A DNA stretch of 60,920 nucleotides from a virus. Under the pieces are notes generated by a model. It saw nothing but the letters and a program-made list of their open reading frames with translations, made no database searches and was not told the DNA's origin. Shown here piece by piece: positions 5,933 to 38,400 of this stretch; position 1 is the first letter of the stretch; each line of letters begins with the position of its first letter. The translations under genes and the position numbers were made by a program. The stretch is taken from positions 1 through 60,920 of IMG/VR virus record IMGVR_UViG_3300017605_000625; one strand, 5' to 3'.

Positions 5933-8697
5933 TTGCTCTTACTCGGCTTCGGTTTGGCTCTAGCGGTCGCCTTGGCAACCCTGATCTTGGCGTCAGCATC
6001 AATCTTGGCAAGCTTCTCTTTGTGCGCGAGTTCTCTCTCGGCCATTGCATGCTTGTGTTCTAATTCCTGAGCGGCCAGTTCCTCTTTCTGGCTCATCTCG
6101 CGCTCATGCCTATCTCGCTGTAGTTCCATATCGTGCTCATGCTTCTGGCGCTCTTGCACGGCGTCCATAACCATGCCTCCGGTCTTCATGTGCATCTCGG
6201 CGGCATGCTCTCGTTGCCTGATAGCGATTTCGTTCTGGCTTTCAGCGGAAGAGCGCTGATGATCAAACAGCATCTTCATTGCTTCACGCTGGGCGTCCTG
6301 CTGGACTTCCTGACCATGAATGATTTGCTCTTCCTGAATCTTCAGGCGCTCCAGAATAATCTTCATCGCCTCCACTTTCTCGCGTGAAGTGCGATCTTGC
6401 TGCTTGTCCGCGCTCTGCATTTTCTGGATTTCAAGCTTCAGTAGCATTTGAAGCTTCTGACTTTCCGCCTGCTGAGCATTGGCAGCCTGTTTAGCCTGCG
6501 CCGCAATAAGCGAAGGATTAGGCGGAGGCGGTGCAGGCGATTGCCGGAATAGTCCCTCCGGATCAATACCTGTAATACGCATAATGCGGGTATCAACGGC
6601 AATCGGGTCATAAAGATCAGGCGATCCCTGTTGAAGTGTCTTGATCACAACCGCCTTGGCAATCCGATGCATGCTGGTTGGATTATTCGGATCGGCAACC
6701 GGGACCAGATTGTTGTCATCCAAAGCTTTTACAAATTGATCTTTCTGCCACCGAATAGTTGTCTTTTTATTGTGTCGCCAGAAAGCTTCCGGGTCCTCCT
6801 TGAAGCGTTCCTTTAGAAGCTGGAATTCCTTGCCCTGCGCCGAAGTCAAGCGCTTATGAACAGCATCCATTGTTTTGGTTGCTTGCTCAATCAATGCCAG
6901 CGTAGTTCCGACAGGCGCATCCTGTTTGCCTTCACCGATGCTCATTTCGGCGGTGCCGCCGACACGCTGACCCAATTGTTCGATATTCTGGGTTAGCTGC
7001 ATGAAAGCAGCGCCGGGCTCTTTATATGGCAGAGCCATCACGGCCTGATTGATTGGCATGCCACCAGTATCAAGTGGAACACCGCCGCCCGGAGGAATTC
7101 GGAATTGATTTGTTAATTGTCGCCCGAATTGTTTGGCGTAGATAAATCCCGGAAATGAAGAAAACATTCCGGCATCAAGTTGAATACGCCATGCCGCCGT
7201 CAGGGCGCTAGTAGTATTACCCAGAATGTGTATGAGACCAATGCCGTAAAAGCCAAGAGCGCGTACAAAAGCGAAGTCCACAAAATACTCTTTAGCAAGA
7301 CACATTTTATCTTCCTTGCGCCAGTTTCGTCGCAAGGCCAAAACCTGCCTACTCTCTTTGTGGATAGTGACAACATATGGAAGCTGGAGTCCTGTTTCCT
7401 TGCCTTTCTCTTTATGCTCAAAGCCGGAAATGTCCAATTCACAATAGCATTCATAGATTTCATGGTCCGCGTCCTGCGGTTTTTGGACCTGCGGATTTAT
7501 TCCCTGAATTTCCAGCTTTTTATCTTTTACCGGATCGGGAAGGTTGATTTGATTGACGGGAATCTCAATATCGCGATAAGCGCCCACCAATTGCATGCGC
7601 TTCAAGACAGAGGGCCGCATTTTAATGCGGTGGGTAATTCTTCCACAATTCTCCAGATTGGTTTCTGCGTTTGAAACAATCAGGTCTTCGGCGTCTATAC
7701 TTTCAGAAACCGGACGACGGCGAAGTGGGCAATTGTAAACTTTCTTGATGCCCTGACCGCCAGCACCAATCCAGAACAGCATTCTATCGGTGTCGGGATA
7801 ATATTCGGTCGCGACCGCTGTAACCCAATGATTGAAGTCGGTCTCTAGGGCTTCCGCAAGCTCGTCGCTCTCCGCGCTCATACCATCAGGCAGAACTGGC
7901 TTGGGCGGAGCCATCAATCCGGTCGGAGGGGGTGCGGGAGGCCCATTGGGGACTGGAGGCGGGCCTCCCGCTGGCGATCCCGGCACTTGGGGAGCCGGAA
8001 TAGGTAAATTAGGCGGGTCACCCGGGGCTACGCCAGCGGGCTGTTGTCCATTGGACGGCCCGGAGAGTGGTCCCCCTCCTATGCTGGTCGCTGGAGCCGC
8101 TTGGCCCATGGAGAGAGGTGGACCACCATTATGGCCCATTTGAGGCGGCATCATCGGCATCGGCGGCGGTGGAGGAATTTTTGGAGCAACCGGGGCATCG
8201 TTCCTGATCTTGATCGGACCAGCGGCAGGCAAAAGCTCGCCTCTGGCATTGGCTTGAAACCTTAAAACGGCCTCCAGAAGAAGAGGGTGCTGGACGGTTG
8301 AGACACCTTCACCCGTGGCCTCACCCTTGGGCTCATTGAGTTTTAGTCCAAGTAGCCCAATACCTCTGGCGCGGGTATCAAGCCAATCCTTGCGGGATTG
8401 ATCGTCCAGTTGGATGCCATCTAAAAGCTCAGATGATATCCTTGAAAGCTCTCCGGATTCGATCTCTTCGGCCAGATTGGCGTACCAGTCTCCGCCCGGC
8501 TGGCGGACCGTTTTCGGAGAAAAATCAATGGTTAGAGAGCCGTCAGGATTTTCTGTCTTGGAAGCCCCATTCTGTATGGTCGTGCGGTCGCTGATTGTGT
8601 CTGGCGAGCCGAGATCGATGGTGGAAGGCATAGAGAATGGATTAGGCGGCAATTCATCGGTCAGCCTAATCGATCCAGTGTTGACTGAGCGTACCAT
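5929..8697 (-). CDS. Portal protein
   Basis: A 922-residue protein directly after TerL in gene order, which with its size supports a portal call. Residues about 125-150 (VQHPLLLEAVLRFQANARGE) are the conserved helical region of large podovirus-type portals. A Pro/Gly-rich insert follows (about 170-265). The central alpha/beta clip and wing region includes DADHEIYECYCELD. After about residue 730 the chain is a long Gln/Glu/Lys coiled coil up to the basic end KPKPSKSK. This portal is at the large end for short-tailed phages. It forms the dodecameric ring for DNA entry and exit. Confidence 0.8.
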   Translation of the reverse strand: MVRSVNTGSIRLTDELPPNPFSMPSTIDLGSPDTISDRTTIQNGASKTENPDGSLTIDFSPKTVRQPGGDWYANLAEEIESGELSRISSELLDGIQLDDQSRKDWLDTRARGIGLLGLKLNEPKGEATGEGVSTVQHPLLLEAVLRFQANARGELLPAAGPIKIRNDAPVAPKIPPPPPMPMMPPQMGHNGGPPLSMGQAAPATSIGGGPLSGPSNGQQPAGVAPGDPPNLPIPAPQVPGSPAGGPPPVPNGPPAPPPTGLMAPPKPVLPDGMSAESDELAEALETDFNHWVTAVATEYYPDTDRMLFWIGAGGQGIKKVYNCPLRRRPVSESIDAEDLIVSNAETNLENCGRITHRIKMRPSVLKRMQLVGAYRDIEIPVNQINLPDPVKDKKLEIQGINPQVQKPQDADHEIYECYCELDISGFEHKEKGKETGLQLPYVVTIHKESRQVLALRRNWRKEDKMCLAKEYFVDFAFVRALGFYGIGLIHILGNTTSALTAAWRIQLDAGMFSSFPGFIYAKQFGRQLTNQFRIPPGGGVPLDTGGMPINQAVMALPYKEPGAAFMQLTQNIEQLGQRVGGTAEMSIGEGKQDAPVGTTLALIEQATKTMDAVHKRLTSAQGKEFQLLKERFKEDPEAFWRHNKKTTIRWQKDQFVKALDDNNLVPVADPNNPTSMHRIAKAVVIKTLQQGSPDLYDPIAVDTRIMRITGIDPEGLFRQSPAPPPPNPSLIAAQAKQAANAQQAESQKLQMLLKLEIQKMQSADKQQDRTSREKVEAMKIILERLKIQEEQIIHGQEVQQDAQREAMKMLFDHQRSSAESQNEIAIRQREHAAEMHMKTGGMVMDAVQERQKHEHDMELQRDRHEREMSQKEELAAQELEHKHAMAERELAHKEKLAKIDADAKIRVAKATARAKPKPSKSK

Positions 8698-26554: not shown

Positions 26555-26628
26555 GCGGCGTTAGCTCAATGGTAGAGCTAGAGCCTTCCAAGCTCCCGAC
26601 GAGGGTTCGATCCCCTCACGCCGCTCCA
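26555..26628 (+). tRNA. tRNA-Gly (anticodon TCC)
   Basis: A complete cloverleaf of 74 bases: acceptor GCGGCGT/ACGCCGC, D-arm GCTC/GAGC with AATGGTA loop, anticodon loop CTTCCAA (TCC), T-arm GAGGG/CCCTC with loop TTCGATC, and an encoded CCA end. The anticodon stem has one A-C mismatch at its outer pair. It reads GGA glycine codons. The only clear tRNA in the window. Confidence 0.93.
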
Positions 26629-28530: not shown

Positions 28531-28594
28531 ATGTTTCGGCATGGTCTCTTTCGAGAGACCATAGCGAAGCATTTTCGCTTCATATCGAGAGGGA
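28531..28594 (+). promoter_or_regulatory. Intercistronic RNA element E2 before 28601
   Basis: Strand 1 ATGTTTCG (28531-28538) pairs with strand 2 CGAAGCAT (28565-28572) around the inner hairpin ATGGTCTC/GAGACCAT; strand 2 can instead pair with strand 3 CGCTTC (28576-28581). GAGAGGGA follows. Confidence 0.6.
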
Positions 28595-28600
28595 AAATTT

Positions 28601-28864
28601 ATGTCAGAGCCAAGCAAACAGCAAATCGCACACGGCAATGCAATTGCCCGTCGCCGCGCTATCAATGGCCAGCCTAACGGCTACAAACCAGTGACAGAAG
28701 CGGAATTGCAGGCAATGAAAGATCAAGCCTTCAAGCTTGAACTGGAGGCCATGGAAGGAAGCGAAACGCGCCGCAAAGCATTGGCAGAGCAAACGAGCTA
28801 TAGCCCGGACGCTTCCGGCGCGCACAATAGTCCGCTTGTTTCCAATGCCAAGGCCGCCGCTTAA
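28601..28864 (+). CDS. Small hypothetical protein (87 aa)
   Basis: Charged, Ala/Gln-rich helical protein (MSEPSKQQIAHGNAIARRRA). C-terminal end SNAKAAA is disordered-looking. Function unknown. Confidence 0.55.
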   Translation: MSEPSKQQIAHGNAIARRRAINGQPNGYKPVTEAELQAMKDQAFKLELEAMEGSETRRKALAEQTSYSPDASGAHNSPLVSNAKAAA

Positions 28865-28876
28865 AGCCTTCCCACC

Positions 28877-29006
28877 CTGCGCTGTGTCAAGTATGCGATA
28901 TGGGGACAGCCAACTATTTCGATTTTCATACTTTCTCGAATAGGCATCATGGAATTGGCAGGCCGGGACTTTACCCATACAGCGCAGTAGGGAGCGCTCA
29001 CGCTCC
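28877..29006 (+). promoter_or_regulatory. Intercistronic RNA element E3, long form
   Basis: CTGCGCTGT (28877-28885) pairs with ACAGCGCAG (28979-28987); a further AAGTATG/CATACTT pair lies inside the 93-base loop. Then GGAGCG (28991-28996) pairs with CGCTCC (29001-29006). ATCGAGAGGGAAAA follows. Confidence 0.5.
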
Positions 29007-29026
29007 ATATCGAGAGGGAAAATATC

Positions 29027-29143
29027 ATGAAGTACAAACGGGAGATGATCCTAGAAGATATGCCCGACATTGACGAAATGCCGGTCATTCTTGCGTGGAT
29101 TGGCTTGATCCTTTTTGTTGCGGGATTGGCGGTGTTCACATGA
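29027..29143 (+). CDS. Single-span membrane peptide (38 aa)
   Basis: MKYKREMILEDMPDIDEMPV then a hydrophobic helix ending GLAVFT. GAGAGGGAAAA precedes; ATGA overlap with the next gene. Function unknown. Confidence 0.5.
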   Translation: MKYKREMILEDMPDIDEMPVILAWIGLILFVAGLAVFT

Positions 29144-29334
29144 CCATCGCAAAAATCAGAGTTCCGCATCCACACTTCAAATTGCCCAAGGTTCGCAAAG
29201 ATCACTATCGCCGCACACTGTTCGCGGCCATTGTGGTCATGCTGGCAGCACACGAATTCATGCCAGCATATGAGCATTGGGCTGCACTGGCGACTAACCT
29301 GTTCTTTTTCTGGGAACCAACAATAGAAGTCTGA
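29140..29334 (+). CDS. Small membrane protein (64 aa)
   Basis: Starts MTIAKIRVPHPHFKLPKVRK; a basic N-terminus is followed by a hydrophobic helix (TLFAAIVVMLAAHEFM) and a Trp/Phe-rich end. Translationally coupled to the 38-aa gene before it; the two may work as a pair in the membrane. Confidence 0.5.
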   Translation: MTIAKIRVPHPHFKLPKVRKDHYRRTLFAAIVVMLAAHEFMPAYEHWAALATNLFFFWEPTIEV

Positions 29335-29392
29335 ATGTTTCGGCATGGGCTATCAAGTCCAAAAGATAGCCCATTGCGAAGCATTGCGCTTC
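29335..29392 (+). promoter_or_regulatory. Intercistronic RNA element E4 before 29415
   Basis: ATGTTTCG (29335-29342) / CGAAGCAT (29377-29384) outer stem, perfect 10-bp inner hairpin 29345-29354/29365-29374, alternative partner GCTTC at 29388-29392. GAGAGGGAAAA follows. Confidence 0.6.
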
Positions 29393-29414
29393 AAATTGAA
29401 GAGAGGGAAAATTC

Positions 29415-29903
29415 ATGCCAACAATCAAGTTCAAGGGGTTTTCTCAGCTTGAGAAATCCATACTGGCCAAGACGTTCAAGGCCAATAGCGAAAGGCTTGA
29501 CATGCACAACGATAATTTCACCGTATATGTCAGTCGCGTCCCTATTCAGGGAGGCCCAAAACACTACGCAAGAGTTGCCTATCCCAAAAAAGATTTATTC
29601 GTTGTCGAGTTGAACGACGACGGATTTAACCTTTTCGATGCAACGTCAGCATTGGGTCATGAGGCGGTTCATATGAAGCAATATCGAGCCGGTCGCATGA
29701 AAGACAGTGAAGAAGGCGTTCATTGGAACGATAATCTTTATCGTCCCTTCAGAATAGCGCTTTCCGGCAATGACGTGCCATGGGAAAAAGAGGCATGGGC
29801 ATTACAGGGCGAGCTTCACAAGCATGCCGTGGAAAGCCTATCGCCAGAACACCGCAAGCATATCAAGAGTGAACAATCGCATGGCCTAAATAAGCTATGG
29901 TGA
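29415..29903 (+). CDS. Putative zinc metalloprotease (HEAVH)
   Basis: A 162-residue protein with LGHEAVHMKQYRAG; HEAVH at residues 82-86 is the HExxH zinc and catalytic motif. PWEKEAW at about 122-128 could give the third, glutamate ligand, as in gluzincins. A conserved-looking HWNDNLYRPF lies between. No signal peptide, so it would act in the cytoplasm. It could cleave a host or phage protein early in infection; target unknown. The motif is seen; activity is inferred. Confidence 0.65.
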   Translation: MPTIKFKGFSQLEKSILAKTFKANSERLDMHNDNFTVYVSRVPIQGGPKHYARVAYPKKDLFVVELNDDGFNLFDATSALGHEAVHMKQYRAGRMKDSEEGVHWNDNLYRPFRIALSGNDVPWEKEAWALQGELHKHAVESLSPEHRKHIKSEQSHGLNKLW

Positions 29904-29958
29904 ATGTTTCGACACTGGCCAGACATGGTTCTGGCCAGCACGAAGCAATTCATGCTTC
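29904..29958 (+). promoter_or_regulatory. Intercistronic RNA element E5 before 29978
   Basis: ATGTTTCG (29904-29911) / CGAAGCA (29941-29947), inner CTGGCCAGA/TCTGGCCAG (29915-29923, 29930-29938), alternative partner GCTTC (29954-29958), then GAGAGGGA. Confidence 0.6.
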
Positions 29959-29977
29959 AATTGAGAGGGAAATCAAA

Positions 29978-30145
29978 ATGCCAGATGTAGATCAAATCAT
30001 CCGATGGGAAAACGGCGATATGGAAGAAGACGAGGAAATCAAATTCTTTCAAGGCTTGGTAGATACTGGCCTTGCTTGGACCTTACAGGGAATGTATGGC
30101 CGACGCGCCGCACAACTAATCAAGGAAGGATTGGTAACGCGATGA
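29978..30145 (+). CDS. Conserved small phage protein (55 aa)
   Basis: MPDVDQIIRWENGDMEEDEE followed by FFQGLVDTGLAWTLQGMYGR. This IxxWExGxM...FFQxLxDTGLxWxLQGxYGR pattern is found in a widespread family of small phage proteins of unknown function. Start at 29978 follows GAGAGGGAAA. Function unknown. Confidence 0.75.
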   Translation: MPDVDQIIRWENGDMEEDEEIKFFQGLVDTGLAWTLQGMYGRRAAQLIKEGLVTR

Positions 30146-30300
30146 ATAATCAAGAACGCTCACAGTGGATTGATAATGACGAAGACCTATATATGTTTTG
30201 GAAAGCGTCGTTTATGTCCAAAACGAAATTCATGCGGGAATATCGCGATAGAATTGACGTTATTATCAAGGCTAAATTATCCAAAAAACCAAATCGCTGA
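30142..30300 (+). CDS. Small hypothetical protein (52 aa)
   Basis: MNNQERSQWIDNDEDLYMFW start, basic end KLSKKPNR. Coupled by ATGA to the gene before it, the usual place for such a partner of the 55-aa protein. Function unknown. Confidence 0.55.
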   Translation: MNNQERSQWIDNDEDLYMFWKASFMSKTKFMREYRDRIDVIIKAKLSKKPNR

Positions 30301-30303
30301 TAC

Positions 30304-30377
30304 ACTGGCCAGTCCGAGCAAACCGTTTTTTTGGTTTGTCCGGTAATAACTGGCCAGCAATGAGCGATTAAGCGCTC
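30304..30377 (+). promoter_or_regulatory. Intercistronic RNA element E6 (variant)
   Basis: ACTGGCCAGT (30304-30313) and ACTGGCCAG (30349-30357) enclose a CAAACC/GGTTTG hairpin (30319-30338). TGAGCG (30361-30366) pairs with CGCTC (30373-30377). No strand 1. Confidence 0.5.
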
Positions 30378-30397
30378 TATAATGAGAGGGAAATCAC

Positions 30398-30736
30398 ATG
30401 CCATTAAAACCAAAAACCGCAATGCGGAAAGACAGGCGCTCAGCGCTGGATATAGATTTGCAACATCGGCACTTCGCCTTTATTGCAAAAGTCATTGCTA
30501 CATCTGGCGAGCGCAACGAAGACAAGCGGCGATGGGCCAACCATTTTGCCGTATCCTTGGCCGGAACAAATCTTAAATTCGACCGGGCAAGGTTTTTCAA
30601 TGCTGTTGGCGTCGATGATCCATATGTCACGCAAGCGGCGTATCCCCGGCCACTGGCCGAGGTTAAAAAAACGTATAAAGAGTTTCGCGAAGAAACCGGA
30701 CTTGCCCAACGCTTGAAATACCTGACGGAAGACTAA
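30398..30736 (+). CDS. Hypothetical protein (112 aa)
   Basis: Basic start MPLKPKTAMRKDRRSALDID; middle HFAFIAKVIATSGERNEDKR and SLAGTNLKFDRARF are typical of small phage proteins with a helical fold, but I know no function. GAGAGGGAAA precedes. Confidence 0.55.
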   Translation: MPLKPKTAMRKDRRSALDIDLQHRHFAFIAKVIATSGERNEDKRRWANHFAVSLAGTNLKFDRARFFNAVGVDDPYVTQAAYPRPLAEVKKTYKEFREETGLAQRLKYLTED

Positions 30737-30786
30737 ATATTTCGACACTGGAGCTAACCCTGCTCCAGCACGAAGCATTTGGCTTC
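30737..30786 (+). promoter_or_regulatory. Intercistronic RNA element E7 before 30809
   Basis: ATATTTCG/CGAAGCAT (30737-30744, 30771-30778, one mismatch), inner CTGGAGC/GCTCCAG (30748-30754, 30762-30768), alternative partner GCTTC (30782-30786), then GAGAGAGGGAAAA. Confidence 0.6.
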
Positions 30787-30808
30787 AAAAAATCGAGAGA
30801 GGGAAAAC

Positions 30809-31192
30809 ATGGCAAAGAAAGCAAAGAGAGGTGCGTATAAACTGCGCTTCAAGCCTACGCCTATATCCCGGCTAAAGCACTATAAGGCACCGTTGCGTAT
30901 GGTAGGCGACCCGCGCTGGAGTATTGGTTCCAGCGACAAGGAGGCTTGGCGCAATCGCGAGCGCGTGGTTTATGAATATGAAATAGACCGCAAAACTCAG
31001 GATACTCGCGGCTGGTCTCACGCCACTTATTATCAGGCCATTGCAGACAATAAGCGTATCGATTGGCTTTTGTTACGCAAATCAGACGACCATATCGAAG
31101 CGCTGTGCGTTCAATTCGATATGGCCCATGAAGAGGCTCAACGCGATAATGCGGCTTGGGATTATCACCACGAAAATTACATCGCCGCGTGA
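30809..31192 (+). CDS. Hypothetical protein (127 aa)
   Basis: MAKKAKRGAYKLRFKPTPIS start, very basic, then a Trp/Tyr/Asp-rich folded part (YYQAIADNKRIDWLLLRKSD). The ATG at 30809 follows GAGAGAGGGAAAA. Function unknown. Confidence 0.55.
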   Translation: MAKKAKRGAYKLRFKPTPISRLKHYKAPLRMVGDPRWSIGSSDKEAWRNRERVVYEYEIDRKTQDTRGWSHATYYQAIADNKRIDWLLLRKSDDHIEALCVQFDMAHEEAQRDNAAWDYHHENYIAA

Positions 31193-31250
31193 CGTTCATA
31201 CTGGCCAGCGAAAATCTGGCCAGCAATGAGCGCCAAATCATTGGTGTTCA
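31193..31250 (+). promoter_or_regulatory. Intercistronic RNA element E8 before 31282
   Basis: CGTTCAT (31193-31199) / ATGAGCG (31226-31232), inner CTGGCCAG/CTGGCCAG (31201-31208, 31216-31223), and TGAGCGCC (31227-31234) / GGTGTTCA (31243-31250) with two G-U pairs: all three strands changed together compared with E2. Confidence 0.65.
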
Positions 31251-31281
31251 AATCGAGAGAAAAGAAAAGAGGGAATAATTC

Positions 31282-31677
31282 ATGCAAGAAATCGGAGTAA
31301 TGCACGTCAGCGTGGAACAGGCAGAACATGCCTTCCGCATCAATGGCGTGACAGTGGCCAAACGGCACTTGGTTAACAAGTTTCGCAAGGATCAAAACAA
31401 TCCAGAGAAACTGCTTTCCAAATATCTGGTTATCGTGCCGTTTCTGGCCACTTCATACCAAATGCCAGACAACGCCGACGACAGCACCAAATATGCCGTG
31501 GCGAAAGCCAAGCGGCTATACAAGGCGCTGGAATTGAACGACGACAACATCGTTCCGTTCATGATGGTGTTTATGCAGCAAGCTGGCAATGAAACCATCG
31601 ACAGTATCGGAGATCAATTGCAAGCGTCTTTCGAGCCGGGCAGCGTCAAAAGCCCGGGCAAAAGGACGCTGCACTAA
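31282..31677 (+). CDS. Hypothetical protein (131 aa)
   Basis: MQEIGVMHVSVEQAEHAFRI start, alpha/beta, no motif recognised. A separate GCCAGC/GCTGGC hairpin (31692-31726) follows its stop. Function unknown. Confidence 0.55.
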   Translation: MQEIGVMHVSVEQAEHAFRINGVTVAKRHLVNKFRKDQNNPEKLLSKYLVIVPFLATSYQMPDNADDSTKYAVAKAKRLYKALELNDDNIVPFMMVFMQQAGNETIDSIGDQLQASFEPGSVKSPGKRTLH

Positions 31678-31691
31678 AGCGGCCATTTTGG

Positions 31692-31726
31692 GCCAGCAAG
31701 ACAAATTTCTTTTTGTCTGCGCTGGC
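31692..31726 (+). promoter_or_regulatory. Intergenic hairpin E9
   Basis: GCCAGC...GCTGGC outer and GACAAA...TTTGTC inner stems with no alternative strand. A plain stem-loop between 31677 and 31781; possibly a terminator or processing site, though no T-run follows. Confidence 0.4.
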
Positions 31727-31780
31727 AACTGCAATTTGGCTGTATGTCGGCCTTAATTGGGCCAGAACGGCTGGTTGGCT

Positions 31781-31942
31781 ATGATAGAAGCCATCGGAAA
31801 ATGGTTTGTACCCATCGGTGTTGCCGCTATGGTCTCCTTTGGGTTTGGCTTCCACCAAGGGAAACGACAAACCATAGAGCAAGTGAAAATAATCTTGAAA
31901 CAGGAAATCGAGAAAGCTGGAAAAGGCTACATCGAATTGTGA
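31781..31942 (+). CDS. Single-span membrane peptide (53 aa)
   Basis: MIEAIGKWFVPIGVAAMVSF then a charged amphipathic helix (TIEQVKIILKQEIEKAGKGY). No strong ribosome binding site is seen before the ATG. Function unknown. Confidence 0.45.
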   Translation: MIEAIGKWFVPIGVAAMVSFGFGFHQGKRQTIEQVKIILKQEIEKAGKGYIEL

Positions 31943-31991
31943 CGTTCACGACCTAGCCCTACCAAGGGCTAGTGGTGAGCGCCTACGCTCA
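31943..31991 (+). promoter_or_regulatory. Intercistronic RNA element E10 before 32009
   Basis: CGTTCAC/GTGAGCG (31943-31949, 31975-31981), inner CTAGCCCT/AGGGCTAG (31953-31960, 31965-31972), alternative TGAGCG/CGCTCA (31976-31981, 31986-31991), then GGAGGGAAA. Confidence 0.65.
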
Positions 31992-32008
31992 AATTGGAGG
32001 GAAATAAA

Positions 32009-32941
32009 ATGCAATTAGCTAAGTCTGCAATGCTTGTATCTGTTAGCATTGTAAACGGCGGATTGCTTGGCGAGCGCCGCGATAATCAGGCCAGTCTATT
32101 AGTCGAGAATACTTTTAGCGTGGCCCATCGTCGTACCAAGGCAAGCAAATACTTGATTGATCGAAAGCACAAATCGGTTAAGCGAGTGGTGGCCGCTTCA
32201 CAGCGCGTTCGCGAGGTAGTCTATCGTTATACCATGCCATGGGGCGATGATAAATCGCGCCTGTTGCCGGTAAAACTGGCCGAAACCTTTCGGCTTAAGA
32301 TCGAAACGGCAATCATGGAATTGCAAGAGGCCCGCGATAATTATATCCACGATTATCCGGCACTGGTAAGCGCCAGTGAGCGTGATCTGGGCGAGTTGTT
32401 TGATCGGTCGCAGTATCCAACTGTTGATCGCATCAAGGACCTGTTCACCACGAAAGTAACCTACTGGCCAATCCCAGAGAGCAATAATTTCGTGGCCGAA
32501 ATCTCAAATGAAGCTGCGAAAGAAGCTAAGGACAATATCGAGCGTGAAATCGAGCATCGTTTGCTGGAGGCCACCTATGATATGGTCAAACGGGCCAAGG
32601 AAGTGGTTTCGACCTATGTTACCAAGCTGGAGAAATTCAGAGTTGACGAGGACGGTACCCCAGAGACAAATTTCCGGGATAGCCTTGTGGACAGTGTAAG
32701 GGACACGGCGTTTCTAATTGAACGCATGAACCTGACGAATAATCCACAAATCAAAAAGGTGGTTCTTGATCTAACCCGGCTTTCCGGCTTTGCCGCGTAT
32801 CATTTGCGGCGAAGGCCAATGGTTCGGGAAAAAGCCCTAGCGGCTGGTCAGGAAATCCTAATGAACCTGACAATGCTGGACTTAAAAGATCAGGAAGTCT
32901 CCGATATGGTGGCAGATACAATAGATTTTATGGATACCTAA
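32009..32941 (+). CDS. DUF3150-like protein of a MoxR/VWA system
   Basis: A 310-residue helical protein. Its N-terminal region (SVSIVNGGLLGERRD, then WGDDKSRLLPVKLAETFR) and its place just upstream of a MoxR ATPase and a VWA protein match the DUF3150 family that accompanies these pairs. It likely serves as an adaptor or substrate for the ATPase. The ATG at 32009 follows GGAGGGAAA. Family call is moderately sure; role inferred from gene order. Confidence 0.65.
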   Translation: MQLAKSAMLVSVSIVNGGLLGERRDNQASLLVENTFSVAHRRTKASKYLIDRKHKSVKRVVAASQRVREVVYRYTMPWGDDKSRLLPVKLAETFRLKIETAIMELQEARDNYIHDYPALVSASERDLGELFDRSQYPTVDRIKDLFTTKVTYWPIPESNNFVAEISNEAAKEAKDNIEREIEHRLLEATYDMVKRAKEVVSTYVTKLEKFRVDEDGTPETNFRDSLVDSVRDTAFLIERMNLTNNPQIKKVVLDLTRLSGFAAYHLRRRPMVREKALAAGQEILMNLTMLDLKDQEVSDMVADTIDFMDT

Positions 32942-32995
32942 TGTTTCGACACTGGAGCTTGCGGGCTCCAGCACGAAGCATTTCAAATGTGCTTC
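32941..32995 (+). promoter_or_regulatory. Intercistronic RNA element E11, invaded by HNH gene
   Basis: ATGTTTCG/CGAAGCAT (32941-32948, 32974-32981), inner CTGGAGC/GCTCCAG (32952-32958, 32965-32971), alternative GCTTC (32991-32995). The stop codon of the antisense HNH gene (32983-32985) lies inside the second hairpin and no GAGAGGG follows. Confidence 0.55.
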
Positions 32996-33420
32996 CATCT
33001 ATTTCTAAGCTTAATATGATTAACGGATGCTTGAGAAATGCCAAACTTTTTAGCAATATCCCGTTGCTTACCACGCGCTTTTCTTATGGAGACAATCTGA
33101 TTTGCAGTAAGCTTTGAGTGCCCATTGTTTTCTCCAATATTTTTGGTTCCTCCTTCTTTTCTATTTTCGCGCGCTGTCACACATTTAACGTTGTCGGCTT
33201 TATATGGTCCCTTATCTCCATATCTAGCCATATGATATTGATTAGGTTTATTGCCCCTTAATTTAATCCAATCAGGCCCTAAATGATCTTCCCACCATTT
33301 GCGCCATTCCTCAAAGGAAAACTCAAATGGAATGTTTCTACGTCCCGCTCCAAATTTATGGCAAGCATAAAGATAGCGTTGCCATCCTATTTTGGTATAT
33401 CTGCTCCTATTTTTATGCAT
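32983..33420 (-). CDS. HNH-type homing endonuclease, antisense in early operon
   Basis: A 145-residue basic protein. EFSFEEWRKWWEDHLGPDW and YKADNVKCVTARENRKEG are the degenerate HNH-type core of phage endonucleases; the end LTANQIVSIRKARGKQRDIA plus FGISQASVNHIKLRNRW is a NUMOD-like helix-turn-helix. AAGGAG precedes the ATG at 33420. It is on the opposite strand to every neighbour and splits the DUF3150-MoxR pair. Confidence 0.75.
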   Translation of the reverse strand: MHKNRSRYTKIGWQRYLYACHKFGAGRRNIPFEFSFEEWRKWWEDHLGPDWIKLRGNKPNQYHMARYGDKGPYKADNVKCVTARENRKEGGTKNIGENNGHSKLTANQIVSIRKARGKQRDIAKKFGISQASVNHIKLRNRWKHI

Positions 33421-33439
33421 ACCTATCGCTCCTTGATTA

Positions 33440-33490
33440 CTCAATCAAGCTCATATATACCATATGAGTTTCATTGAGCAATCATGCTCA
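33440..33490 (+). promoter_or_regulatory. Intercistronic RNA element E12 before 33508
   Basis: CTCAAT/ATTGAG (33440-33445, 33473-33478) encloses CTCATAT/ATATGAG (33450-33456, 33462-33468); TGAGCA/TGCTCA (33475-33480, 33485-33490) is the alternative pair. AAGAGAGGGAAA follows. Confidence 0.55.
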
Positions 33491-33507
33491 GTAAGAGAGG
33501 GAAATGC

Positions 33508-34527
33508 ATGCTTAAATGTAAGATCACAAAATTGGCCGATACCATCTGGCCGCTTGTTCACGCCAACATTCCGGTTATGATCTATGGACCGACTGGCGTG
33601 GGCAAATCTACCGTGGTCAAAAATGACCTTGTTCCTCGCATTGAGCAGGAATTCGGCAGAACCACGGTGCATGATACCCGGCTTTCCACCAAGGATATCG
33701 TGGACGGTACGGGCATGCCCATTATCGACAAGGAAGAGCGCGCGACGTTTTGGACACGGCCAGCGTTTATTCCCCGCGATGATGGAGGAATGCATGTCAT
33801 GTTCTTTGACGAATTCGGGCATGCATCGGTTCAACTCCAGCAAATGGCATATTCGCTGGTTCTGGATCGCGGCTTGGGTGGCTTTCCGCTGCCCGAGAAA
33901 AACCGCGTTCTGCTTGCCAGCAATACCAGAACGGACGGCGGCGGCGATAACAAGATGCTAAAACCTCTTGAGAACCGCATGGCGCACGTTACGGTGGAAA
34001 ATGACGCCCCGGGCTTGATCGAAAAGATGAAGCAATGGGGATGGGATAGTCGTCTGGTCGCGTTCTTGACCTTAAGGCCGGGAGAAATCCACAACGTCTC
34101 CCAGACTGATCCCTCGTTTGCCACGCCGCGTTCATTGGAAATGCTCAATAAGGTCTTGAAAGACCTTCCGGTTGACGTGAAAAATACCACGCTGGAGAAT
34201 GTGTCTCAAGCGATTGCTGGCGATGGTTTTACCCGGCAGTTCATGACGTTTATCACAAATCTGGGCGCGAATTTGCCTAAGCTTCCTGAAATCTTGGCTA
34301 ATCCGGCCAAGGCCAAGGTGCCAAGCGACCCGCATTTCCAGTATGTGGTGGCGGCGGCGATTGCCAAGAATATCGACGCTAAAACCGCCACAAAGTTCTC
34401 CGAATATCTGGCAAGATTAATGCCGGATATCCGTTCAATGGCGGCACACGATGCCATTGCGCGGGATAGCTCGCTGGCTAATAACCAGCACTTGAAAGAG
34501 CTAATCTTGGAAGGGTCCGGCAAGTAA
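33508..34527 (+). CDS. MoxR-type AAA+ ATPase
   Basis: A 339-residue ATPase. Walker A GPTGVGKST (residues 27-35), Walker B HVMFFDEFG (about 96-104), sensor-1-type VLLASNTR and arginine-rich NRMAHV. The pre-sensor region with STKDIVDGTG is typical of MoxR/CbbQ ATPases that load or remodel partners with VWA proteins. Start at 33508 follows GAGAGGGAAA; the frame is open to 33484. It should act with the DUF3150 and VWA proteins around it as a remodelling complex. Confidence 0.85.
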   Translation: MLKCKITKLADTIWPLVHANIPVMIYGPTGVGKSTVVKNDLVPRIEQEFGRTTVHDTRLSTKDIVDGTGMPIIDKEERATFWTRPAFIPRDDGGMHVMFFDEFGHASVQLQQMAYSLVLDRGLGGFPLPEKNRVLLASNTRTDGGGDNKMLKPLENRMAHVTVENDAPGLIEKMKQWGWDSRLVAFLTLRPGEIHNVSQTDPSFATPRSLEMLNKVLKDLPVDVKNTTLENVSQAIAGDGFTRQFMTFITNLGANLPKLPEILANPAKAKVPSDPHFQYVVAAAIAKNIDAKTATKFSEYLARLMPDIRSMAAHDAIARDSSLANNQHLKELILEGSGK

Positions 34528-34584
34528 GCCTCTAAAGAACAAAACCCGGAGACCCCTCTGGGGGAGTTGGGATGATTGGCAAAG

Positions 34585-34676
34585 GGAATGCGGAGACCAC
34601 CGCATTCCTGATACTTTGCAAGACGTTTCCACTCTAGGCTGGTTCCAACCCAGTCTAGCAGGAAGCGCCTAGCTTC
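34585..34676 (+). promoter_or_regulatory. RNA element E13 with extra upstream hairpin
   Basis: First hairpin GGAATGCGG/CCGCATTCC (34585-34593, 34600-34608) inside GCAAAG/CTTTGC. Then CGTTTCC/GGAAGCG (34624-34630, 34661-34667), inner CTAGGCTGG/CCAGTCTAG (34634-34642, 34650-34658) and alternative GCTTC (34672-34676). AAGAGAGGGAG follows. Confidence 0.6.
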
Positions 34677-34696
34677 GAGAGACAAGAGAGGGAGAT

Positions 34697-35893
34697 ATGT
34701 GGAATTACTTCAAAACTACAGATGCAATGCGGCGCGTATTGATTGCCCGTGAGAAAATCGCACGGCGCAATCCGTTCTTCGCGAGCATTCTGTTCAATGC
34801 CAGACTGGTCGAAAGCGACAAGCACAAGACCATCTGGACGGACGGGATAAACGTCTATTTCAATCCGGAATATATCAAGGAAAACGATCCCTTTATCGAG
34901 GGCGATGTTCTGGAGTGCGTCATGCATGCCGCTATGCAGCATCTAGGGCGCAAGAAATATCGCGATAACGACAAGTGGAACGAAGCCTGCGACCTGTCAA
35001 TCCGGCCATTGGTGCATCAATACTTCAAACAGCACCCGCAATTGATGGCCCAAGACGGCAGGTATCCTGACAAGGCTGCCGAGGAAATCTATGAACTGCT
35101 GGAGCAACAAGAGCAAAAGCAGCAACGAAAACAAAAAGGCCAAGGCGGCAAAGGCAAGCCCGAGGGCGACGAGGAAGGCGAAGACGGTCAGGGCGAGCAA
35201 CCCGGAGGTATGGTCGATCCCGATCCGCAGGATCAGGAAGAGGCCGAGGCCGCTGGCAAGCAATGGGCCAGAGCCGTCTCCAACGCTATGGAGAAGGCTA
35301 CCAAGGCTGGCAATATGCCCGGCAATATCAAGCGTTTGGTGGAAGAGCTTCTTCCGGCAGAAAAGCTGAATTGGCGGGATATCATTCGGGATATGTCACG
35401 CGATGCCAAGAGCAAAGAAAGCCGTTCATGGTCTCGCGTTAATCGCAGGCGTTCCGGTCAGGACGAGGGTGAGCCTCCGATGCCCGGCAATGCCGATGAC
35501 AATATCTACAATCTGGTGATCTGCTTCGATGTTTCCGGCAGTGTTTCGCAAGAGATGCTTCGGAATATGAAGAGCGAAATCGCCAGCGTTATGGATCAAG
35601 ACCTGATCAATCAGGCAACTCTAATCGCAGTCGATACGCGACCGCAAAGCATAACCGTTGTCACCAATGGAGCCGAAGTCGCAGACTGGGTTCCGACTGG
35701 CGGCGGAGGAACGGACTTCCGTTCGGCAATGCAACTGATCAAGGAAGAGTATGGCCAGTCTATCGGCTTGCTGTTCCTGACTGATCTGGAGACTTCTAGC
35801 TTCGGTGAAGAGCCTTCATTTCCGGTTGTCTGGGTTAATTTTAGCCCGGGCAATGGTCAGAAAGCGCCGTATGGAAGAACAGTGGATTATTGA
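34697..35893 (+). CDS. DUF2201/VWA-like protein
   Basis: A 398-residue protein. N-terminal half is the DUF2201 metallopeptidase-like domain, but its expected HExxH motif reads MHAAMQHL, so zinc protease activity is probably lost. A Gln/Lys/Glu-rich linker (about 135-190) follows. The C-terminal half is a von Willebrand A domain with the MIDAS motif DVSGS (about residue 280), then GGGGTDF and FLTDLE. VWA proteins of this kind pair with MoxR ATPases. It sits 169 bases after the ATPase gene. Confidence 0.8.
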   Translation: MWNYFKTTDAMRRVLIAREKIARRNPFFASILFNARLVESDKHKTIWTDGINVYFNPEYIKENDPFIEGDVLECVMHAAMQHLGRKKYRDNDKWNEACDLSIRPLVHQYFKQHPQLMAQDGRYPDKAAEEIYELLEQQEQKQQRKQKGQGGKGKPEGDEEGEDGQGEQPGGMVDPDPQDQEEAEAAGKQWARAVSNAMEKATKAGNMPGNIKRLVEELLPAEKLNWRDIIRDMSRDAKSKESRSWSRVNRRRSGQDEGEPPMPGNADDNIYNLVICFDVSGSVSQEMLRNMKSEIASVMDQDLINQATLIAVDTRPQSITVVTNGAEVADWVPTGGGGTDFRSAMQLIKEEYGQSIGLLFLTDLETSSFGEEPSFPVVWVNFSPGNGQKAPYGRTVDY

Positions 35894-35894
35894 T

Positions 35895-36077
35895 ATGACG
35901 GCGAATGATTGGGAAACGCTGGCGCTGGTCATAAAAGACCAGCGCAATGCACCGCATCTTAACGAAACCGAAAGGGCAATTATAGATAATCTTGCCCTTC
36001 AAATTGTGCGTCAGCTAAAAACTATTCGCAGAAATGACAAATTTTTGCCGGAAGAATGGTTAGCATCCTGCCGTTGA
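35895..36077 (+). CDS. Small hypothetical protein (60 aa)
   Basis: MTANDWETLALVIKDQRNAP start; helical and acidic. Begins right after the VWA gene stop, so it is probably translated by coupling. Function unknown. Confidence 0.5.
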   Translation: MTANDWETLALVIKDQRNAPHLNETERAIIDNLALQIVRQLKTIRRNDKFLPEEWLASCR

Positions 36078-36128
36078 CGTTTCCACTCTAGGGCTTTCGA
36101 GCCCTAGCAGGAAGCGCCTTTGTGCTTC
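36078..36128 (+). promoter_or_regulatory. Intercistronic RNA element E14 before 36148
   Basis: CGTTTCC/GGAAGCG (36078-36084, 36110-36116), inner CTAGGGCT/AGCCCTAG (36088-36095, 36100-36107), alternative GAAGC/GCTTC (36124-36128). AAAGAGAGGGAA follows. Confidence 0.65.
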
Positions 36129-36147
36129 GCAGAAAGAGAGGGAATAA

Positions 36148-36456
36148 ATGACCGCGACAGTATCTAACCATCCGTCAGCCGGGAAACCAAAGTAAACGGA
36201 ACACGAAGTCCAAGTTATCATCGTGCATGAAAGCGTGGCAGAAAGCGTAATCTCCGATACCTATACGTTCGGAGCGCTCATTCTGTCTTGCTATGTCGGC
36301 TATCTCTTGGATAGCTCTGCCCTGCAATGGATCGCCGGACTGATGCTTATAACCGGAATAGTAACCCGGGGCATTAAGCAACTCAAACAAAACCGTTACA
36401 CCATTGCCGAAGCCCGGGCCAAGCTTGACGAACTGGAAGCAAAATTCAAGACTTGA
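36148..36456 (+). pseudogene. Membrane protein gene with in-frame stop at 36193
   Basis: GAGAGGGAATAA leads to ATG at 36148: MTATVSNHPSAGKPK, then TAA (36193-36195), then the same frame goes on TEHEVQVIIVHESVAESVIS through two membrane helices (GALILSCYVGYLLD, WIAGLMLITGIVTRG) to 36456. No good ribosome binding site precedes the inner ATG at 36223. So the gene is broken by one nonsense codon, or uses readthrough, reinitiation or a leader peptide. Confidence 0.6.
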
Positions 36457-36495
36457 CGTTCAAACACTGGAGCATACGTGCTCCAGCATTGAGCG
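36457..36495 (+). promoter_or_regulatory. Intercistronic RNA element E15 before 36519
   Basis: CGTTCA/TGAGCG (36457-36462, 36490-36495) with inner CTGGAGCA/TGCTCCAG. Strand 3 is missing; the binding site is AAAGGAG before a GTG start, not GAGAGGG. Last member of the array. Confidence 0.55.
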
Positions 36496-36794: not shown

Positions 36795-37108
36795 GCAAAT
36801 TCAAAGTTGGCGATTTGGTTAAATGCGTAAACTATGACGATGTGACTGGTGAAAGACTGCTTCAATATGGTCGAGATGCCATACTAACGGTTACAGGGGT
36901 GTATCGCTCAAGTGATATTACCTTTATCCTTGTGAATGGAGGCCGCCAAGAAGATCATGACGGAGCATATTCCACCCGCTTTGTCTTGTCTGACCAAATG
37001 GATGCCATCGTCTTGTCTGACCAAATGGATGCCATCGTCTTGTCTGACCAAATGGATGCCATCGAATATGAAGAGACCATGGCCTTTGAGAAGCTAGTTA
37101 ATGGCTGA
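36791..37108 (+). CDS. SH3-like protein with triplicated 9-aa insert
   Basis: A 105-residue protein (FKVGDLVKCVNYDDVTGER). VLSDQMDAI is repeated three times in tandem at about residues 65-91, encoded by perfect 27-bp repeats. The end EYEETMAFEKL is the shared motif. ATGA overlap upstream; 15-base convergent overlap with terS. Confidence 0.65.
   Translation: MSKFKVGDLVKCVNYDDVTGERLLQYGRDAILTVTGVYRSSDITFILVNGGRQEDHDGAYSTRFVLSDQMDAIVLSDQMDAIVLSDQMDAIEYEETMAFEKLVNG
36983..37063. repeat. Three perfect 27-bp tandem repeats
   Basis: Units at 36983-37009, 37010-37036 and 37037-37063, each starting GTCTTGTCTGACC. In frame within the 36791 gene, so copy number can change without breaking the gene. 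Sequence identity of the copies suggests recent expansion. Confidence 0.95.
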
Positions 37109-37638: not shown

Positions 37639-37911
37639 ATGGCGGAAGAGAGGCAAAAGGCGGCAGTTGGCGACTGGGTAAAATGCATATACGGCGGCAA
37701 TTACTATGATCAATTCCATGGCGGCGGCCTGTATCTGATAACCAACATTTACTATGATCATGAAACGCTCCGCTATTCCTTTGCTATGGACGACGCCGGT
37801 AGCTGCACTAATGGTTGGGTTGCCAGCTATTTTGTAGTCCATACGCCAATGTTGGAGGGCGCACAAGAATATGAAGATATCTTAGCTGCACAGGAAATCA
37901 TGGAGGGATAA
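37639..37911 (+). CDS. SH3-like protein with shared C-terminal motif
   Basis: A 90-residue protein. VGDWVKCIYGGNYYDQFHGG, then ITNIYYDHETLRYSFAMDDA; end EYEDILAAQEIMEG is nearly identical to the end of the next gene. GGAGGGAG precedes the ATG at 37639. Confidence 0.65.
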   Translation: MAEERQKAAVGDWVKCIYGGNYYDQFHGGGLYLITNIYYDHETLRYSFAMDDAGSCTNGWVASYFVVHTPMLEGAQEYEDILAAQEIMEG

Positions 37912-37916
37912 TAAAA

Positions 37917-38159
37917 ATGGATGTGGGCGATTGGGTAAGGTGTACCTTTAAGGGCGATGGTAGAGGCCAATTTCACGAAGGAGGGATATACCAAGTCACG
38001 GCGGTAGATAGCAATGAAATTTCGGTTGCCCACGATGATACTGGCAGACCTAATGGATGGAGCCACCGTTTCTTCGAGCTTGCATCATCACCGCCTACAT
38101 CAATGCCCGATGATGAATACAGAGAAATTATGGCAGCGCAGGAAATCATGGAGGGATAA
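37917..38159 (+). CDS. SH3-like protein with shared C-terminal motif (paralogue)
   Basis: An 80-residue paralogue of its upstream neighbour: VGDWVRCTFKGDGRGQFHEG, VAHDDTGRPNGWSHRF, end EYREIMAAQEIMEG. The pair looks like a tandem gene duplication. Confidence 0.65.
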   Translation: MDVGDWVRCTFKGDGRGQFHEGGIYQVTAVDSNEISVAHDDTGRPNGWSHRFFELASSPPTSMPDDEYREIMAAQEIMEG

Positions 38160-38163
38160 TAAA

Positions 38164-38400
38164 ATGGGCCAGCACACCGAGCGCCTCAGAGAGTTAATCA
38201 AAATCTTGCCGACTAAATCCTCCAAGGGATTTACGCCAGAGATAGCATCTATGTGCCTAGCACAGCTTGCCAATGGCGCTCTACAAGTCATTGCCGAGCT
38301 AGAAGAGCGCAATGAGGATTTGTGCAAAGAGATCGACAGAATGACCGAAATGATGGTCGAGAAGGGAGTGATCCCGGAATGGAAGCCCACGGATGGCTAG
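38164..38400 (+). CDS. Small coiled-coil protein (78 aa)
   Basis: MGQHTERLRELIKILPTKSS, then a long helix with heptads (VIAELEERNEDLCKEIDRMT). Start at 38164 follows GGAGGGATAATAAA. Lacks the shared motif. Function unknown. Confidence 0.5.
   Translation: MGQHTERLRELIKILPTKSSKGFTPEIASMCLAQLANGALQVIAELEERNEDLCKEIDRMTEMMVEKGVIPEWKPTDG

Follow-up and report, generated by a model that had tools for sequence, protein, structure and literature searches.

The stretch analysed here is the IMG/VR virus record IMGVR_UViG_3300017605_000625 over its whole length of 60,920 bases, referred to below as the window. It comes from an uncultured tailed phage with a portal of phrog_1216 and a terminase of phrog_38, and it carries genes for a MoxR-type ATPase and a VWA/metallopeptidase protein at 33.5–35.9 kb. 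Within 28.5–36.5 kb, a region termed the block, twelve RNA elements of a common plan are located on the coding strand at gene junctions (Table 1). Read from 5' to 3', each consists of a stop codon, strand 1 (S1), two or three unpaired bases, an upper stem with its loop, two unpaired bases, strand 2 (S2) and strand 3 (S3). S1 is mostly GUUNNN, S2 is NNNAGC and S3 is GCUNN; the upper stem comprises 8–10 GC-rich pairs, S2 and S3 are separated by 4–6 bases, and a GAGAGGG-like ribosome binding site follows S3. An N4-like identity of the phage, which had been assumed from the ATPase/VWA pair, was dropped on account of the terminase and portal families and of the absence of the element from the N4, DSS3phi2 and LUZ7 stretches.

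Table 1. The twelve elements of the block, with window positions of the pairing strands.
Element	Span	Strand	S1	Internal loop	S2	S3	Remarks
E2	28533..28581	+	28533-28538 GTTTCG	GC/AG	28565-28570 CGAAGC	28577-28581 GCTTC	
E3	28868..29006	+	28868-28873 CTTCCC (weak)		28990-28995 GGGAGC	29002-29006 GCTCC	Apical domain 28875-28985, Atu_At1-like
E4	29337..29392	+	29337-29342 GTTTCG	GC/TG	29377-29382 CGAAGC	29388-29392 GCTTC	
E5	29906..29958	+	29906-29911 GTTTCG	ACA/CA	29941-29946 CGAAGC	29954-29958 GCTTC	
E7	30296..30377	+	30296-30301 GCTGAT (one mismatch)	ACA/CA	30360-30365 ATGAGC	30372-30377 GCGCTC	S1 overlaps TGA stop; long apical hairpin
E8	30739..30786	+	30739-30744 ATTTCG	ACA/CA	30771-30776 CGAAGC	30782-30786 GCTTC	
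E10	31194..31250	+	31194-31199 GTTCAT		31226-31231 ATGAGC	31243-31250 GGTGTTCA	
E11	31944..31991	+	31944-31949 GTTCAC	GAC/TG	31975-31980 GTGAGC	31987-31991 GCTCA	
E13	32943..32995	+	32943-32948 GTTTCG	ACA/CA	32974-32979 CGAAGC	32991-32995 GCTTC	Next + strand gene only at 33.5 kb
E14	34625..34676	+	34625-34630 GTTTCC	ACT/CA	34661-34666 GGAAGC	34672-34676 GCTTC	97 nt after ATPase stop
E15	36079..36128	+	36079-36084 GTTTCC	ACT/CA	36110-36115 GGAAGC	36124-36128 GCTTC	
E16	36458..36494	+	36458-36463 GTTCAA	ACA/CA	36489-36494 TTGAGC	absent	

A first-pass annotation of the window had described ten core elements (E2, E4, E5, E7, E8, E10, E11, E13, E14 and E15) with related forms that included E3 and E16, and all of these were found where it had placed them. 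Its statement that S3 stands just ahead of a GAGAGGG site needs correction for E16, which has no S3, and for E13, where an opposite-strand open reading frame (ORF) takes the place of the ribosome binding site. A 153-aa ORF at 32983-33444 on the minus strand, between E13 and the ATPase gene, looks like a homing-endonuclease-like insertion by its appearance and gave no Pfam match. Elements without S3 were also seen near the block end in related phages (L003:13437, L005:12636 and L006:12821, besides window position 36458), and three of these four carry GCT for GTT in S1 and hence no wobble.

The element scan itself required S1:S2 and upper-stem pairing, and common loop types received a bonus. Run without the sequence bonus, it detected eight plus-strand elements in the block, none on the plus strand of positions 1-28200 and 36700-60920, and none in any of 20 dinucleotide-shuffled versions of the block; the single match on the minus strand of the block probably mirrors an element. 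Five elements gave folding z values of −2.4 to −5.1. A covariance model (R1) was built from 18 elements of equal length from five phages, namely the window and four phages (L003–L006) that were found via the ATPase protein only (61–75% identity) and that carry the same elements on the coding strand, in one block each. Its 15 pairs were paired in 100% of cells and both sides had changed in 12 of the 15, compared with 71% paired cells and 8.7 double-changed pairs in column shuffles, and with 36–42% paired cells when the partner was slid. RNAalifold recovered the identical structure unaided. The observed elements are real and beyond chance.

In pattern scans of viral contigs, about 20 further uncultured contigs proved to carry the element, several with 5–10 copies. 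L140, L146, L127 and L145 have the ATPase and/or VWA genes in common with the window; in other element-bearing contigs the terminase is a different one (phrog_2, phrog_979) or the AAA protein is unrelated.

Because the scan demanded pairing of S1:S2 and of the upper stem, the cleanest evidence comes from features outside its criteria. Two such features were examined in a wider collection of 92 elements. The pair −1/+1, just outside S1:S2, is UA in 54 elements and CG in 37, with one exception; the pair −3/+3, which falls inside the stop codon for most elements, is AU in 47 and GC in 44, again with one exception. The covariation of strands 1 and 2 that had been noticed in the window is strong across the wider set, and the pairing extends further than the six pairs first described and, through these covarying outer pairs, reaches the stop codon. 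The whole helix measures 17–21 bp in most of the 92 elements and is interrupted by an internal loop between the lower and upper stem, of the ACA/CA, GUC/UG, GC/UG and GAA/CG types. The loop position beside the lower stem is A-A in 49 elements, G-G in 32, C-A in nine and A-C in two, and a canonical pair was never observed there. The upper hairpins had been called unrelated in sequence, which is not wholly the case: most start with CUG or CUA and finish with CAG or UAG. In L140, a hairpin of about 28 bases (CAGGTTTTTGCTTTCCGCAAAATACCGG) is found in one apical loop and again between S2 and S3 of the neighbouring element (7764 and 8218, minus strand), and its presence at both places indicates that the loops accept insertions.

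The competing pairing of S2 with S3 was evaluated in the same collection. In 64 of 92 elements, the final five bases of S2 have an exact complement in the 41 bases that follow; when the tail is taken from an element of another S2 type, this is so in 1.4% of cases. S2 differs from CGAAGC in 30 elements, and 19 of these match their own tail (permutation mean 5.7, maximum 14 in 20,000). Many other tails contain a bulged S3 (GAAGCGCC...GGCGACUUC and similar), and at L153:828 and L127:6988 a change of S2 from AGC to AAC is accompanied by a change of S3 from GCU to GUU. Joint changes of the strands were also seen at one orthologous junction, which precedes the same gene in each of six phages and reads GTTCAC/GTGAGC/GCTCA (S1/S2/S3) in the window, GTTCAT/ATGAGC/GCTCA in L006, GTTCTA/TAGAGC/GCTCTA in L003 and GTTTCG/CGAAGC/GCTTC in L140 and L146; in L004 it is GTTCAT/ATGAGC with a weaker S3.

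These results bear on a passive role for the element, in which a stable structure behind the stop codon would insulate against 3' exonucleases, Rho loading or scanning post-termination ribosomes and the second pairing would be incidental. A stable stem is indeed present at almost all block junctions and S3 is missing in some elements; against this, S3 tracks the changes in S2 far above chance and the wobble is located in S1 and not in S3, so that passive insulation appears quite unlikely. The earlier proposal of a wobble in the 1:2 pairing and Watson-Crick pairing in 2:3 was borne out: of 89 elements, 80 have a U in S1 facing the AGC guanine, whereas S3 is of the Watson-Crick form in 63 elements and of the wobble form in four. 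Such a placement of the wobble fits strand exchange. The S1 wobble also associates with the presence of S3 (p = 0.011), which is only a hint in view of the small numbers, the judgement of S3 absence by eye and shared ancestry.

It is extremely improbable that the element is a DNA recombination site which shuffles gene cassettes through a hairpin resembling integron attC. The gene-plus-hairpin units, the variable apical domain and the unpaired spacer between the stem parts would suit such a site, but the G-T opposition is kept in one orientation in those 80 of 89 cases, as expected of an RNA G-U wobble, and the elements have a single orientation relative to the genes. The ends of the element, GTT...AGC, differ as well from the core order of attC.

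The position of the element relative to translation was also analysed. An ORF precedes 82 of the 92 elements, and its stop codon ends 1–2 nt before S1 in 60 of them. E7 and E14 depart from the first-pass claim that S1 begins within about one base of the stop codon (Table 1). The distance from the stop codon to the upper stem is 10–11 nt in 59 of 73 elements, and a shorter internal loop is accompanied by a longer spacer (p = 0.01, with no correction for phylogeny). In Escherichia coli, a terminating ribosome that holds the stop codon in its A site extends over about 9–10 more bases. A coverage of this size would hide S1 up to the internal loop, and the observed distances agree with the earlier suggestion that a ribosome at the stop codon covers S1. 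Folding of the elements assigned 0.84 of the ensemble to S1:S2; when the stop codon and S1 were masked, S2:S3 rose from 0.11 to 0.69, as against 0.22 with shuffled tails. Distances and masked folding together render the geometry of a terminating-ribosome switch well supported as a model, and the terminating ribosome a plausible agent of the switch whose distances fit well.

Two competing pairings, as first proposed, are supported by the covariation of S3 with S2 in own as opposed to other tails, by the joint changes at the six-phage junction and by masked folding. Covariation, folding and the six-phage junction show the mutually exclusive pairings of a transcription attenuator. As in trp-leader attenuators, the exclusive 1:2 and 2:3 pairings would be set by a ribosome over strand 1. 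Unlike them, the elements described here have no leader peptide, no strand 4 and mostly no terminator; they recur at up to a dozen junctions, and the ribosome would terminate rather than stall.

The first-pass annotation had suggested that the exchange could tune translation of the next gene, and a simple form of this was not supported. The unpaired probability of the Shine-Dalgarno sequence was 0.60 in one state and 0.69 in the other, with a change above 0.3 in three of 73 elements, so that the sequence was not seen to be sequestered in one state and released in the other. In L127 (6988-7060) and L145 (649-720), a terminator-like GC hairpin with a T run separates the element from the start of the MoxR-type gene; all strands are retained there although S3 is followed by this hairpin and not by a ribosome binding site, and S3 overlaps neither hairpin. 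Both results make direct control of the following start less likely and favour an action on the message as such. Ribosome-gated translational coupling, whereby freed S2 would pair with S3 and alter initiation at the next start codon, is consequently unlikely. It would be consistent with the location of S1 within the footprint of a terminating ribosome and with the end of S3, which in most elements is 14–22 nt upstream of the start codon and close to the border of the region that an initiating ribosome covers; the nearly equal openness of the Shine-Dalgarno sequence and the two contigs with an intervening hairpin speak against it.

A promoter or terminator reading of the elements was rejected, as site scans gave results at about the level of shuffles. 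Between 27.5 and 37.5 kb, 12 terminator-like sites were counted against 11.6 in shuffles, and no terminator was seen to form in one of the two alternative states, as an attenuator would have it. The T4-type promoter-early-stem-loop cassettes are, like the present elements, dispersed intercistronic stem-loops of phage genomes, but they carry a promoter and a terminator. It is very unlikely that the element signals to RNA polymerase, by antitermination or pausing, in the manner of HK022 put. The put RNAs likewise form two hairpins in nascent phage RNA, an adjacent hairpin pair is found here in the nascent RNA of a phage operon, and two elements precede terminator-like hairpins; however, most elements have no terminator after them, and both the stop-codon placement and the alternative pairing would be left unexplained. 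The put RNAs are not known to be linked to stop codons or to be repeated at gene junctions.

An effect on processing or stability of the messenger RNA (mRNA), which the first-pass annotation had mentioned as an alternative, would probably fit better than translational tuning. The T7 site R1.1 is a 60-nt RNA with an asymmetric 4/5-nt internal loop between genes 1.0 and 1.1 (PMC6121014). RNase LS cuts 20–25 nt past the stop codon where ribosomes pause in T4 infection of E. coli (PMC3014915) and provides a precedent for termination-dependent cleavage; it shares this dependence with the present proposal but involves no conserved RNA element. Like the T7 RNase III sites, the elements are repeated intergenic hairpins of a phage operon, of about 20 bp, with an internal loop between the stem parts. 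No T7 RNase III site is known whose stem includes a stop codon or in which a third strand competes for one arm.

It is conceivable, if somewhat unlikely, that the elements are plain RNase III-type sites as in T7, with no ribosome sensing, in which the internal loop would be cut and the downstream message would then start with S2:S3 as its 5' hairpin. The plan is that of R1.1, most helices measure 17–21 bp, the loop is never canonical and the strands are kept ahead of terminator-like hairpins. Plain sites would leave unexplained the lock on the stop codon, at 1–2 nt from S1 and 10–11 nt from the upper stem. Moreover, double-stranded RNA of 16 bp was not cut by a Sinorhizobium RNase III, which needs longer double-stranded RNA than the E. 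coli enzyme (PMC6121014).

The reading we prefer, with a probability of roughly 0.45, is that the element would be a switch on the stop codon of the preceding gene which is refolded by the terminating ribosome, the likeliest output being mRNA maturation. In the resting state, which is well supported, S1:S2 would form a hairpin of 17–21 pairs that extends into the stop codon and has an unpaired internal loop at its centre. During termination, the ribosome would hide S1 as far as the internal loop while the upper stem stays folded. Geometry, covariation and folding suggest that the freed S2 would be captured by S3 as a short second hairpin, and departure of the ribosome would bring the long hairpin back. 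The long hairpin could serve for cleavage or protection, its availability being set by whether the upstream gene is being finished by ribosomes. If the internal loop were cut, the upper hairpin would come to lie at the 3' end of the upstream mRNA and the S2:S3 hairpin at the 5' end of the downstream mRNA, and each cistron would thereby obtain protected 3' and 5' ends.

Several points weigh against this interpretation. No clear upstream ORF ends at ten of the 92 elements, hence ribosome gating cannot be universal; some of these elements may be relics of lost genes. The ribosome coverage of 9–10 bases is a general figure from E. coli. The length demand of Sinorhizobium RNase III counts here too, the helices being 17–21 bp long with an interruption. 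In addition, the main search pattern, through which most contigs other than the five phages were detected, contained GTTTCG, so that the frequency of GTTTCG outside the five phages is biased and partly reflects ascertainment.

A broader view, which we regard as doubtful, would see in the elements a post-stop control layer of Rhizobiales phages, in which the stop-codon RNAs of most block genes signal the end of translation to mRNA processing. Each cistron would be cut, capped or kept according to its translation status, and the ligand would be the terminating ribosome instead of an initiating or leader-stalled one. If a termination-refolded switch operates as proposed, stop codons would be regulatory sites and translation termination would directly refold the intergenic message, which would explain separate mRNA fates for each gene in compact phage operons of many small genes. 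With a length of about 75 nt, it would also be a part open to direct testing and expected to function in a laboratory rhizobium. The elements constitute, even with a plain processing output, an Rfam-unlisted RNA family common to unrelated phages that marks junctions in many uncultured phage genomes.

This RNA family is absent from Rfam and appears to put attenuator-like strand exchange at a new place, the stop codons found at most of the block's junctions. A search of the window at the gathering score of Rfam 15 returned a tRNA alone and no whole-element match, and an E-value search of the block gave At1 and chance-level matches only. No account of such elements was found in the open-access literature, blastn of one element against cultured phages gave no convincing match, and no relatives of the ATPase were found in genome contigs. 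Searches with the model in 120 genus-level and 385 class-level genomes gave almost no matches; as a known positive was missed, these chromosome searches are insensitive and show little. Across 257 Gb of genomes of bacteria and archaea, the exact pattern was present three times, always in Bradyrhizobium, and the match in B. elkanii WSM2783, whose prophage (L179) has elements, is the same sequence as the IMG/VR provirus L128.

The apical domain of E3 scored 52.4 bits with Atu_At1 (RF02496), a small RNA of Rhizobiales, for which the gathering score is 60. Its counterpart in L006, at the corresponding junction (6648-6755), reached 83.4 bits and is above this threshold. The other elements gave no At1 match, and the standalone At1 loci of Rhizobiales genomes are not flanked by S1, S2 and S3. 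An At1-like RNA seems to be carried atop the phage's own element, and this domain suggests a Rhizobiales host.

Further features were observed around the block. A tRNA-Gly (TCC) is located just ahead of it at 26555-26628. At 36983-37064, a 27-base unit is present in three perfect tandem copies within an ORF. The 50-base ends of two adjacent small genes (37867-37916 and 38115-38164) are 82% identical, which suggests that these genes are recent paralogues.

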